Shown piece by piece: positions 8,293-16,649 of a stretch of 39,401 nt of DNA. The notes under the pieces are model-generated. The model worked only from the letters and a program-made list of their open reading frames with translations, did not search any database and had not been told where the DNA came from. The stretch spans positions 1-39,401 of the forward strand of contig NZ_CADCWD010000089.1 in the NCBI RefSeq assembly GCF_902806315.1, read 5' to 3'. The position numbers and the translations under genes are program-made. The DNA comes from an uncultured Sphingosinicella sp. GTDB taxonomy: Bacteria; Pseudomonadota; Alphaproteobacteria; Sphingomonadales; Sphingomonadaceae. Positions within the stretch are counted from its first letter, which is position 1, and each line of letters begins with the position of its first letter.

Positions 8293-8765
8293 AGACGCAC
8301 TCCGCCACGGCCCAAATCTCCGAACTCCTTGCGGTCGGCCACGATTTCCTTTGGGTCGGCACCTCGGCGGGCACGGGCGAAGACGACGGTGCCGACGGGC
8401 TTGCGCGCTGAACCGCCGTCCGGGCCGGCAATCCCTGTGATGGCTACAGCCACGTCAGCCCCGCTCTTGGCCAAAGCGCCTTGCGCCATCGCCCAGGCAA
8501 CCGCGATCGAGACCGAGCCGAAGGTTTCCACAACGTCCGAGCTCACCTTCAACAGGTCGATCTTGGCCTTATCGCCATAGGTCACGAAGCCGGCCTCGAA
8601 CACATCCGAGGATCCGGGTATTTCGGTGAGAGCGGCGCAGACCAGGCCGCCCGTGCAGCTTTCCGCCACCGCGACGCGCCTGCCCGCGGCGCGGTTCTCG
8701 TCAAGCACGCGCTTCGCCATGTCGATGAGCTCGGACGGCAGGATGGTGTCACGATGGTCCGTCAT
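8238..8765 (-). CDS. pncC: CinA C-terminal-domain protein, nicotinamide-nucleotide amidase
   Basis: The 175-aa product is a stand-alone CinA_C domain that deamidates NMN to nicotinate mononucleotide, recycling pyridine nucleotide. Motifs include [38 protein letters not shown] (residues ~28-65) and [20 protein letters not shown], both strong family signatures. The N-terminal molybdopterin-binding CinA domain is absent, as is usual for this form. The ATG overlaps the ispDF stop by 4 bp (ATGA), indicating translational coupling. The 3' end overlaps the converging COQ10-like gene by 55 bp. Confidence 0.93.
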
Positions 8766-9940
8766 TCGGTCTCCAAGATGCGCACGGTCGCGACCGCTTG
8801 CGCTGCTATTCCTTCGCCGCGCCCCGTGAAGCCGAGCCGCTCGGTGGTCGTCGCCTTGATGCTGACCCGGGTCACCGGCAAGCGCAACAAGGCGGCTACC
8901 CGCGCGCGCATGGCGTCGCGGTGCGGCCCGATACGAGGGGCTTCGCAGATGATGGTGACGTCAACATGGTCGATGCGGCCGCCCTTAGTCGCGACCAAGT
9001 CCCGCGCATGCTCCAGGAAAATGGAGGAAGCGGCGCCGCGCCATTGCGGATCGCTGGGCGGGAAGTGATCGCCGATATCGCCCTCGCCGATCGCGCCCAG
9101 GATTGCGTCGGTGAGGGTGTGGAGCACGACATCGGCATCGCTATGTCCCTTGAGGCCCCGGCTGTGCGGGATGAGGAGACCGCCAAGCCAGAGCTCTTCG
9201 CCGTCGGCAAAGGCGTGGACGTCGAAGCCGAGGCCGGTGCGGCTGACCAGGCTCGCGCTCAAGCGCGCTTCGGCGCGGCCGAAATCTTCCGGAAAGGTGA
9301 GCTTCTCCAGCGAAACATCTCCGTCCACCAGCGCAACCTCCAGGCCCGCTGATCGAGCGACCTGAGCGTCATCGGTCGCCCCGACGTCGCCGGGCCAGCG
9401 ACGATGTGCGGCGAGGATCGTGCCGAACCGGAAGGCTTGAGGCGTCTGGACACGCAGGAGGCGGTCGCGCGACACCGGCTCGCCAAGCACATCGCCGCCG
9501 TGTGCGAGGCTGTCGACCACTGGAAGCACAGGCACCGCGCCTTCATTGGCCCCGAGGCTTTCCAGCAGGGCGTTGATGACCCGGGAAGGCAGGAAGGGAC
9601 GGGCGGCGTCGTGTATCAGGACCCGACCGACGCCGCCTTCCGACGCCATGGCCTCAAGCCCGTTGCGCACGGACTGCTGCCGCGCCGTACCGCCGACGAC
9701 GGGCGAGGGCAGAGAGCGGGCGCCGATAGCCTCTGCATACAATGCTTCCTGACCCGGCCCGATCACCACGCGGACCTCGTCGATCCCGGGGTGGCGGAGA
9801 TGGTCGACCGCGTGCGCGAGCAGCGCCTTGCCGCCGATCCGCACATATTGTTTGGGCAGATCGCCGGCGGCGCGGCTGCCGCTTCCGGCCGCCACCACAA
9901 GCGCGACCGTTTTTCCCGCGCTGTTTGCCGGCGTCTCCAT
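8762..9940 (-). CDS. ispDF: Bifunctional IspD-IspF enzyme of the MEP isoprenoid pathway
   Basis: The ~392-aa fusion carries two MEP-pathway activities. Residues ~10-225 are IspD (4-diphosphocytidyl-2C-methylerythritol synthase) with [27 protein letters not shown] and [10 protein letters not shown]. Residues ~230-390 are IspF (MEcPP synthase) with [40 protein letters not shown] and [11 protein letters not shown], including zinc-site Asp and His residues. This fusion is typical of alphaproteobacteria. ATG at 9940 is preferred; an adjacent GTG at 9943 is possible. The gene is coupled to pncC and divergent from dusB with 67 bp between starts. Confidence 0.96.
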
Positions 9941-10007
9941 CACCGCGCCCCTAGCCGAGGCGAGCCTTGCCCGCCACCGCCTTCAACATTATGTGCGTCG
10001 GCTCCCC

Positions 10008-13357: not shown

Positions 13358-14746
13358 ATGGCGCTGGATATTTTGGTCGTTGACGATGAGCAGGACATTC
13401 GGGACCTCGTCTCGGGCGTGCTCGAGGATGAAGGCTATGCGGCCCGCACGGCGGGAAGCAGCAGCGAGGCGCTGGCGGCGCTTGCGGAGCGCAGGCCCTC
13501 GTTGGTGCTGCTCGACGTGTGGCTGCAGGGCTCCAAGCTCGACGGGCTCCAGCTGCTGGAAGAGATCAAACGCCGCGATCCCTCGCTGCCGGTGCTGATG
13601 ATATCCGGTCACGGCAACCTCGACACCGCCGTTGCGGCCATTCGCCAGGGCGCTGTCGATTTCATCGAGAAGCCGTTCGAGGCCGGTCATCTTCTTCACC
13701 TCGTGGCTCGCGCGACCGAAACCGACCGCTTGCGGCGCGAGAACGAGACGTTGCGCGCGCAGATTGGGCAGGAGACCGAACTCACCGGCGCCAGCGTCGC
13801 CATCAATGCGGTGCGCGCAACACTGAAGCGGGTGGCAGGGACCGGGAGCCGGGTTCTCATCACCGGGCCTGCGGGCGTCGGCAAGGAAGTCGCCGCGCGC
13901 CTGCTTCACAATTGGAGCCCGCGTGTGAAGGCGCCCTTCATCGTCGTCAGCGCCGCCCGCATGACGCCGGAACGCGTGGAGGAGGAGCTGTTCGGAGTGG
14001 AGGAGGGGGGCGAGCTCGCCCGGCCCGGCCTTCTCGAACAGGCGCATGGCGGAACCCTGTTTCTCGACGAAATCGCGGACATGCCGCTTCCCGCCCAGGG
14101 CAAGATCCTGCGCGTCCTCACCGATCAGAGCTTTTCCCGGGTCGGCGGCCAGCGCATTGTGAAGGTCGACATGCGGGTCGTCTCCTCTACGGCGCGCAAC
14201 CTGCCGGAGGAGATTGCCGCAGGTCGTTTCCGCGAGGATTTATTCTATCGTCTCAATGTCGTGCCGGTGCATCTTCCCGCGCTTTCGGAACGGCGCGAGG
14301 ACATTCCCGAACTCGTCGCCCATTTCGCGGCCCGCTACGCCGCCGAGCAGAGGTTCCAAACGCCGAACCTGTCGGACGACGCCGTGGCCGCGCTTCAGGC
14401 TTTCGATTGGCCCGGCAACGTCCGCCAGCTCCGCAACGTCATCGAGCGCACGATCATCCTGGCGCCCGCCTCCCGGGTTGGCTGCATCGAGATCGACATG
14501 CTTCCGCCGGAACTTCTCAACGAGCAGGCGCAGCTGAGCCCCGGCGAAGCCGTGAAAGCCATCATGGGGACGCCGCTGCGGGAGGCGCGGGAGACGTTCG
14601 AGCGGGAGTATCTTCGCGTCCAGATCCGCCGCTTCTCGGGAAACATTTCGCGCACGGCGACTTTCATCGGGATGGAGCGTTCGGCGCTGCACCGGAAATT
14701 GAAGGCGCTCGGTATCGGTGATCCCAAAGTGGGGGAGGGTGAATGA
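13358..14746 (+). CDS. ntrX: NtrX-type response regulator (AAA+ domain without GAFTGA)
   Basis: The 462-aa product has a receiver domain with phospho-acceptor Asp53 (VLLDVWL) and acidic DDE at 9-11. An AAA+ domain follows, with a changed Walker A (GPAGVGKE, 170-177) and FLDEIADMP. A C-terminal Fis-type helix-turn-helix lies at ~420-455 (GNISRTATFIGMERSALHRKLKALG). The L1 loop that in sigma-54 activators reads GAFTGA is replaced at about 214-224 by VEEGGELARPG. Loss of that loop is known in several NtrX proteins and implies it does not remodel sigma-54 polymerase. It pairs with ntrY 1 nt upstream. Confidence 0.95.
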   Translation: MALDILVVDDEQDIRDLVSGVLEDEGYAARTAGSSSEALAALAERRPSLVLLDVWLQGSKLDGLQLLEEIKRRDPSLPVLMISGHGNLDTAVAAIRQGAVDFIEKPFEAGHLLHLVARATETDRLRRENETLRAQIGQETELTGASVAINAVRATLKRVAGTGSRVLITGPAGVGKEVAARLLHNWSPRVKAPFIVVSAARMTPERVEEELFGVEEGGELARPGLLEQAHGGTLFLDEIADMPLPAQGKILRVLTDQSFSRVGGQRIVKVDMRVVSSTARNLPEEIAAGRFREDLFYRLNVVPVHLPALSERREDIPELVAHFAARYAAEQRFQTPNLSDDAVAALQAFDWPGNVRQLRNVIERTIILAPASRVGCIEIDMLPPELLNEQAQLSPGEAVKAIMGTPLREARETFEREYLRVQIRRFSGNISRTATFIGMERSALHRKLKALGIGDPKVGEGE

Positions 14747-14850
14747 AGCCGTGACAGAGTCGGCATATTGAAAGCGGAGGCGGCGCTTCTAAGTCACACC
14801 TGCCGAGGCACGCATTCCTTGCGCCTGCCCGGCCAATAAGGAGAAGGGCG

Positions 14851-15348
14851 ATGGCCGAAAAGGTCAACAATCTCCAGGACATGTTCTTGAACGGGCTGAG
14901 GCGGTCAAAGGCGCCGGTCACGATGTTCCTTGTCAAGGGCGTGAAGCTCCAGGGCATCATCACCTGGTTCGACAATTTTTCCGTGCTCCTGCGCCGCGAC
15001 GGGCAGGCGCAGCTCATCTACAAGCACGCCATCTCGACCATCATGCCGTCGCAGCCGCTGGATCTGCGGGACATCGAGCGCGCTTTTGCCGAGCAGATGG
15101 ACAAAAGGAAGCCGACGCTACTTCAGGAGGTGTTCCTCAGCGCGGTGAGACGCGCCGAGGAGCCGGTGACCATGTTCCTGGTGAACGGCGTCATGCTTCA
15201 GGGTGAGATCGTGGCATTCGACCTGTTCTGCATGCTGCTGCAGCGCGAGGGGCTTTCGCAGCTCGTTTACAAACATGCCATCTCGACCGTGCAACCCGAG
15301 CACCCGGTAAGCTTTATGGAGTCGGACAATGAGGAGGCCGACGCCTGA
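14851..15348 (+). CDS. hfq: Tandem two-domain Hfq RNA chaperone
   Basis: The 165-aa chain contains two full Hfq Sm domains, about residues 8-70 and 91-153, joined by a ~20-residue charged linker. By eye 37 of 63 aligned positions are identical between them. Domain 1 keeps Q9, N14, R17/R18, K32, Q34 and YKHAIST. Domain 2 keeps Q92, R100/R101, Q117 and YKHAIST. It has Ser97 for the rim Asn, Glu103 for the third rim basic residue, Met115 for the distal-site Lys, and Leu125 for the Gln41 equivalent. A ring could contain three chains rather than six. The SD AAGGAG is clear. A weak promoter (TTGAAA 14768, TAAGTC 14790) may lie in the 104-bp gap after ntrX. Confidence 0.95.
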
Positions 15349-16649
15349 GCGGGTTTGACAGAGATGCCGAAGACGTGAGCCGCGGCGCCCGAGCGATCGT
15401 GGCGCTGCCGGAACTCGGCCAGGAGGCACGAAGGAGCACGGAAGCGCGGCTCGATGAGGCAGCCGGGCTCGCGGAGGCGATCGGGGTCGTCGTGGCCGAG
15501 AAGCTGTCCTTTCGTGTCCGCGCGCCCAAGGCGGCGACCTTGTTCGGATCGGGGCAGGTGGAGAACATGGCCGAGGCGGCGCGCCAGGCCGAAGCTGAAC
15601 TCATCATCGTCGACGCGCCGATTACGCCCATTCAGCAGCGCAACCTCGAGACCGCGACCAAGGCGAAGGTGATCGACCGGACGGGGCTCATTCTGGAGAT
15701 ATTCGGCGAGCGCGCCGCCACGGCGGAGGGGCGGCTGCAGGTCGAGCTTGCCCATCTCGATTATCAGGCGGGGCGCCTGGTGCGAAGCTGGACCCACCTT
15801 GAGCGGCAGCGCGGCGGCTTCGGCTTCCTGGGCGGGCCGGGCGAAACGCAGATCGAGGCCGACCGCCGCCTGATCCGCGACCGAATGGCCAAACTTCGCA
15901 AGGAGTTGGACCAGGTCACTCGCACGCGCGCTCTGCACCGTGCACGGCGGCAGCGGGCGCCTTGGCCGGTGATCGCACTGGTCGGCTACACCAATGCCGG
16001 CAAGTCGACCCTGTTCAACCGCCTCACCAACGCTGACGTCATGGCGGAAAACCTGCTGTTCGCCACGCTCGATCCGACAATGCGCGAAATTGCGGTGCCC
16101 GGTTTCGACAAGGCCATATTGTCGGACACCGTCGGCTTCATCTCGGAGCTGCCGACCCAGCTCGTCGCTGCCTTCCGGGCGACCTTGGAAGAGGTGATCT
16201 CGGCCGACATCATCGTCCACGTGCGCGATATCTCGCATCCCGACAGCGACGCGCAGCGCGAGGATGTCGAGCAGGTGCTGAAGGAGATCGGGGCGGGGGA
16301 GGCGGCCGGTCAGGCTATGCTGGAGGCCTGGAACAAGATCGACCTGCTTTCACCTGACGACGCCGAGAGCATTCGCGCCGAGGCCGAGCGGAAGGAGGAT
16401 GTGATCCCGATTTCGGCCTTGAGCGGGGAAGGGATGGACGCCCTCATCCGCACGGCCGCCGAGCAGCTGCGCGAGAACAACCGCGTGCGCACGATCACGT
16501 TGCCGGCATCGGCGGGCGAAGCGATCGCATGGCTGCACGCCAACGGCGAAGTCGTCGACCAGCGTAGCGAAGGTCTTGAGACAGAATATGAGGTGCGCCT
16601 GTCAGATGCCGATTGGGCGCGCTTCCAAACGCATCACCTGAGCGTCTGA
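15345..16649 (+). CDS. hflX: Ribosome-associated GTPase HflX
   Basis: The product splits stalled or stress-arrested ribosomes. It shows an N-terminal HflX domain ([43 protein letters not shown]), the glycine-rich [18 protein letters not shown], and a GTPase domain with [15 protein letters not shown] and NKID. The start is uncertain. The first standard codon is GTG at 15375 (424 aa), but it has a poor SD. CTG at 15345 gives 434 aa, overlaps the hfq stop as CTGA, and is preceded by GAGGAGG (15331-15337) at a 7-nt spacing. I prefer the CTG. The 3' end overlaps converging mazG by 16 bp. Confidence 0.93.

Follow-up and report, generated by a model that had tools for sequence, protein, structure and literature searches.

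Tandem Hfq in Sphingomonadaceae: a residue pattern that points to two Sm domains with divided work

Hfq assists small RNAs in reaching their targets and has one Sm domain in most bacteria. An Hfq protein with two Sm-like domains was reported for Zymomonas mobilis (ZMO0347) in 2010, and the accessible text of that report (PMC2877685) mentions six other Sphingomonadales species whose Hfq has two such domains. It also describes stress phenotypes after mutation of Z. mobilis hfq and asks for a structural test of whether three chains would suffice for a hexamer. The words hexamer, trimer, and tandem are absent from the accessible portions of two later papers on Z. mobilis hfq (PMC9797736 and PMC7546472). 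No structural or biochemical study of a tandem Hfq appeared among the titles listed, although most subscription journals lay outside the search and such a study may exist, and no papers on the distal-site residues by name were found in the literature search. The tandem architecture is already known. A residue-level division of labor between the two domains, in contrast, was not found described in the literature searched, and what could be consulted of PMC2877685 on Z. mobilis differs from the present analysis in this respect. In a homohexamer each mutation is made six times, so that the number of working distal and rim sites an Hfq ring needs is a hard question to ask.

The window analyzed here is a stretch of 39,401 nucleotides from an uncultured Sphingosinicella sp. 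(contig NZ_CADCWD010000089.1). Its hfq gene (positions 14851 to 15348, forward strand) is an open reading frame with an ATG start that encodes 165 amino acids (18.8 kDa), and an AAGGAG that resembles a ribosome-binding site was read by eye at 14838 to 14843 on the same strand. The original prediction held that this single chain contains two complete Sm domains. This was confirmed with the Pfam Hfq model (PF17209; curated cut-off, 27 bits), which matched in two stretches of the forward strand, domain 1 at 14872 to 15060 (E 3.1e-30; 105.4 bits) and domain 2 at 15121 to 15309 (E 7.7e-24; 84.9 bits), both exceeding the cut-off far beyond chance. The two matches are separated by a linker (15061 to 15120), and the sequence ends in an acidic C-terminal tail (15310 to 15345). 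The identity between the halves that had been counted by eye, 37 of 63 positions, is exact (residues 8 to 70 against 91 to 153). The protein also has the architecture of NCBIfam NF010691 (PRK14091.1, "RNA chaperone Hfq", 176 positions), which it matched over its full length and in a single stretch (protein residues 1 to 163, profile positions 16 to 175; 291.9 bits against a cut-off of 270). Z. mobilis ZMO0347, likewise from the Sphingomonadales, has the same two Sm-like domains in one chain according to the consulted text of PMC2877685. No other Hfq was found with the Pfam Hfq model in the whole genome (97 contigs, 2,685,486 bases, completeness 95.8%), the sole two matches being the halves of this gene. 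Within 15100 to 15130, an in-frame ATG (Met84) precedes domain 2 and an AGGAGG stretch is present just inside it; an internal start is conceivable.

AlphaFold2 predicted two complete Sm folds, both in the window protein (mean pLDDT 89.2, pTM 0.84; one of the five models was poor, with a pLDDT of 43.4) and in a Novosphingobium tandem Hfq (pLDDT 89.5, pTM 0.85). The N-terminal helix and five strands of the Sm fold were predicted in both halves, and a further helix was predicted in the linker (residues 73 to 85). The high pTM suggests that the relative placement of the halves in these models is confident. The fold search does not decide between ways of packing the halves, because the best 50 of its 1171 matches were all single Hfq chains. 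Among solved structures, Caulobacter crescentus Hfq (PDB 6gwk) was the best relative both in sequence (114.8 bits) and in fold, and domain 1 aligns with it over 2 to 74. The single Hfq of Caulobacter and other Alphaproteobacteria differs from the tandem form in having one domain per chain, on which Lys31, Asn28, a complete rim, and an acidic tail occur together.

We compared the two halves residue by residue, using E. coli Hfq numbering unless stated otherwise. The 182 tandem loci yielded 154 distinct domain pairs, 145 in the main set and 9 in a divergent clade, and the 22 single Hfqs used for comparison came from the window's family (11), other families of the order (7), and other orders of the class (4). 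Position 31 is a distal-face contact. Domain 1 carries lysine at both 28 and 31 in 145/145 main tandem proteins, domain 2 carries asparagine at 28 and methionine at 31 in 145/145, and the singles have Asn28 (22/22) and Lys31 (100%). Compared with a single Hfq, domain 2 has thus lost one lysine, and domain 1 has acquired one at another position of that loop. The accessible text of PMC11770335 describes positions 25, 29, and 30 as exposed on the distal face; its introduction groups K31 with the proximal residues, which is taken here as a slip. At position 63, domain 2 has glutamine in 145/145 and domain 1 has methionine in 140/145.

The rim also differed between the halves. Positions 16, 17, and 19 are all basic in domain 1 of every main tandem protein (145/145) and in every single (22/22) but in only 3/145 domain 2s, and Arg16 alone is retained in domain 2 in 101/145. 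Position 47, which the part of PMC5379935 available to us also counts to the lateral site, is arginine in domain 1 in 145/145 and mostly glutamate (89) or glutamine (41) in domain 2, with arginine in 10 and other residues in the remainder. In the window protein itself, domain 1 has lysine at 28 and 31 and a basic rim of Arg17, Arg18, and Lys20 (own numbering), and domain 2 has Asn28, Met31, and, at rim position 19, Glu103. The changes at RNA-contact positions of the second half that had been predicted from the window sequence are present, namely, Met115 at position 31, Leu125 at 41, Ser97 at 13, and Glu103 at 19. The residue that Leu125 replaces, however, is not glutamine as proposed but asparagine, which occupies position 41 in domain 1 and in 95% of the 22 singles. 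Two features had been missed: domain 1 also departs from the singles on the distal loop, by Lys29 of the window protein (position 28), and domain 2 keeps Arg100 and Arg101 at rim positions 16 and 17.

Other determinants are common to the halves. The proximal residues Q8, K56, and H57 are present in both in 145/145 main tandem proteins, and F42 is present in 145 and 144 of 145. Domain 2 keeps Q33 in 144/145, Q52 in 145/145, and T61 in 145/145. Positions 11, 12, 24, 26, 54, 59, and 62, named as ring-interface positions in the portion of PMC11770335 consulted, are hydrophobic in both halves in 143 to 145 of 145. Covariation between the halves at interface positions gave a median p of 1 among the results listed, the independent changes being too few to give the analysis power. 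The C-terminal tail is acidic in 145/145 main tandem proteins, with a mean net charge of -5.5 compared to -4.4 in the singles. The linker (17 to 24 residues in the main set) is not acidic, with a mean charge of -0.17 and only 26/145 at -2 or below.

As a sequence pattern, these results show a division of work between the two halves. Domain 1 keeps the determinants of the distal site, which binds A-rich RNA, together with the full basic rim. In domain 2 the proximal uridine pocket and the residues of the ring interface are conserved, but the lysine of the distal site and, in most cases, some of the rim are gone; this half also carries the acidic tail. Three chains would supply six Sm domains, which matches the number in an Hfq ring. 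We propose that three tandem chains close into a ring in which domains 1 and 2 alternate, because the interface and proximal residues are kept in both halves and the complete rim in only one, because every complete rim is matched by one acidic tail, and because the lysine lost in one half is gained in the other. Such a ring would have a complete uridine pore, with proximal pockets from both kinds of domain, and in place of six single distal lysines there would be three pairs, formed by residues 28 and 31 of domain 1. Three fully working annealing rims would remain, all on domain 1 positions. According to the accessible text of PMC6561178, the acidic tip of a Caulobacter Hfq protomer touches the basic rim of its neighbor; applied to an alternating ring, this would set the domain 2 tail beside the domain 1 rim, which the tail could then gate.

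We assign a probability of roughly 0.62 to this reading as a whole, in which the Hfq of this genome is the tandem form, its halves divide the work, and three chains form an alternating six-domain ring with tails gating the rims. The three-chain pseudo-hexamer, an idea already raised in 2010, is a plausible arrangement that agrees with the residue pattern. A stricter version is that the ring has two kinds of position by design, with six working proximal pockets, with distal and rim function on three tail-gated domain 1 positions, and with N28K in domain 1 compensating for K31M in domain 2 at a shared distal site. This version we hold tentatively, at slightly below even odds. If the alternating ring is correct, a whole bacterial group would possess a natural Hfq in which fewer rims are complete and the distal face is regrouped. 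Since both kinds of position would be encoded by one gene, mutants could be made at alternate positions only. Eukaryotic Sm and Lsm rings are hetero-heptameric, with seven subunits encoded by separate genes. An alternating Hfq ring would be a simple bacterial parallel to these mixed rings, which are also mentioned in the accessible text of PMC2877685. The likeness, if the alternating ring is right, would lie in ring positions that differ chemically; the difference is that here there are one gene, two joined domains, and presumably six positions. If the alternating ring is wrong, the tandem protein remains a known Hfq variant.

The main alternative is that six chains assemble as a stack of two rings, with domains 1 in one ring, domains 2 in the other, and the linkers connecting them; Met31 of domain 2 would then be a hydrophobic contact between the rings. 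This would agree with the invariance of that methionine (145/145), with ring-ring contacts through the region of the distal loop and strand 2 in other Hfq crystals (as described in the accessible part of PMC5379935), and with the linkers, whose 15 to 24 residues would allow it. Stacking gives no account, however, of the lysine gain in domain 1 that is paired with the loss in domain 2 or of why each complete rim comes with a single acidic tail. Nor would a distal face engaged in stacking require the Q33, Q52, and T61 that domain 2 retains almost without exception. We therefore consider stacked rings unlikely.

It could also be argued that domain 1 alone forms an ordinary Hfq hexamer, with domain 2 as an appendage that is decaying or has a purely structural role, since the domain 2 rim is far more variable and both halves have diverged in nine loci. 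The conservation of domain 2 elsewhere speaks against decay: Q8, K56, H57, Q52, and T61 are present in 145/145, the interface residues are kept, and the domain is present in 202/213 genomes of the family. In the divergent clade, His57 is kept in 9/9 domain 2s compared to 5/9 domain 1s. The appendage reading is left with a small chance. Release of the halves as two separately acting Hfqs, by cleavage or from an internal start before domain 2, is very improbable; an in-frame ATG (Met84) does precede domain 2 in the window protein, but methionine occurs in just 57/145 linkers.

We examined the distribution of the tandem form in the window's order, using a sample of 296 genomes, of which 213 belong to the window's family by family code. 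Tandem Hfq was found in 202 of these 213 genomes and single Hfq in 11. The 202 consist of 193 genomes with a best E below 1e-45, assigned by E-value unless the sequence was fetched, and 9 diverged tandems that were examined; the latter came from the 20 family genomes that scored like single Hfq and were fetched, the other 11 being singles. A single-domain assignment of the nine low-scoring genomes, all in genus code g13, was thus rejected. The 11 singles are spread over seven other genus codes, and none of the family's single-domain Hfqs had an E-value below 5e-35. A match was present in 77 of the 83 genomes from other families of the order, each time at a single-like E-value, and was absent from 6. 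One genome of the order (G001, family code f2) has two Hfq matches, in a family with single-domain Hfq. Tandem-level matches (E < 1e-45) were confined to the window's family in samples of the class (385 genomes, of which 279 matched at E 1e-22 or better and 5 at tandem level) and of the phylum (398 genomes, of which 144 matched at E 1e-20 or better and 18 at tandem level), both of which were judged by E-value, so that a divergent tandem of other origin could escape, as could anything beyond the samples.

Among at least 591 confirmed stretches, 80 named loci were kept, and the tandem form was present in 80/80. Their genera include Sphingomonas (27), Novosphingobium (15, in agreement with the tandem Hfq mentioned for this genus in the original prediction), Sphingopyxis (7), Sphingobium (6), and Erythrobacter (4). 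By family, 72 are placed in Sphingomonadaceae (48), Erythrobacteraceae (10), Sphingopyxidaceae (7), Sphingobiaceae (6), and Sphingorhabdaceae (1), and 8 have no family rank. From these named relatives, the window's family code probably corresponds to Sphingomonadaceae and close kin. The window assembly is in 97 contigs, but a sequencing or assembly error fusing two hfq genes, which had been raised as a concern, is refuted by the tandem form in the 202 family genomes, some of them in one contig, and in all the named loci, and we give it practically no weight. Four loci (L201 to L204), in which the match runs past a stop to query residue 109 to 139, were considered as pairs of adjacent hfq genes and rejected, as each has one Hfq domain by the search used here. 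Of 72,556 plasmid records, 85 matched, and the best was a tandem hfq on an 880-kb Sphingomonas parapaucimobilis record; the other nine of the best 10 were two-piece matches within 234 to 270 bases, which we read as single Hfqs matched by both halves of the query.

The nine divergent loci (L042 to L050) form one clade (support, 99) inside genus code g13 in a tree of HflX, the product of the gene next to hfq. Their linkers have 15 or 16 residues. Domain 1 has K28, R31, and Q33 in 9/9 and Tyr42 in 8/9; His57 is replaced by glutamine in 4/9, and the basic residue at 19 is gone in 6/9. In domain 2, H57 is present and Q33 lost in 9/9, and position 31 is M, S, L, A, or R. This pattern agrees with distal binding that resides in domain 1. 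None of the nine short tails is acidic (net charge, -1 to +2), which, together with the loss of the basic residue at 19 in most members, indicates that tail gating would not be general. The tandem Hfqs of this clade evolve fast in both halves, a relaxation in a global RNA chaperone.

Duplication of an Sm domain within the gene is the best explanation for the origin of tandem Hfq. The phylogeny of the halves, proposed earlier as a check, was built from separate domains (96 rows, 59 columns) and has many unresolved inner forks and long divergent rows. All domain 2s fell on one side of a branch (100/92), as did all singles (91/88), and a single clade of domain 1s was not rejected (p-AU 0.488). 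The HflX tree, inferred by a quick method with 62 tandem rows, bears on the number of origins. When it was left free, 10 of the 11 family singles were placed between a small basal set of eight tandem rows and all others (support, 83), and the remaining single (L036) joined the outgroup, where long branches meet. Taken literally, this placement needs two changes of the tandem state. Constraining the 62 tandem rows together gave a likelihood 7.79 above that of the free search (p-AU 0.697). The data are compatible with one origin in Sphingomonadaceae and close kin, which is neither rejected nor proved. The singles of the window's family carry Asn28 like those outside it (22/22), and every tandem domain 1 has Lys28, which makes loss of the second half in the family singles less likely.

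The gene order around hfq in the window is dusB, a histidine kinase gene, ntrX, hfq, and hflX, with mazG on the opposite strand. The upstream neighbor ntrX (13358 to 14746, forward strand) matched NCBIfam NF051870 at 744.8 bits (cut-off, 600), and the downstream neighbor hflX (15375 to 16649, forward strand) matched TIGR03156 at 453.2 bits (cut-off, 216.75). The histidine kinase reached no NCBIfam cut-off among the best 25 of 46 families; from its place before ntrX, we assume that it is NtrY. An HflX match was present in the stretch fetched around hfq in 80/80 loci from L001 to L080, whether hfq is tandem or single, indicating that hfq has stayed in place. A second fused gene lies near hfq, a bifunctional IspD-IspF fusion on the reverse strand (8762 to 9943; NCBIfam NF006899, 466.6 bits against a cut-off of 417).
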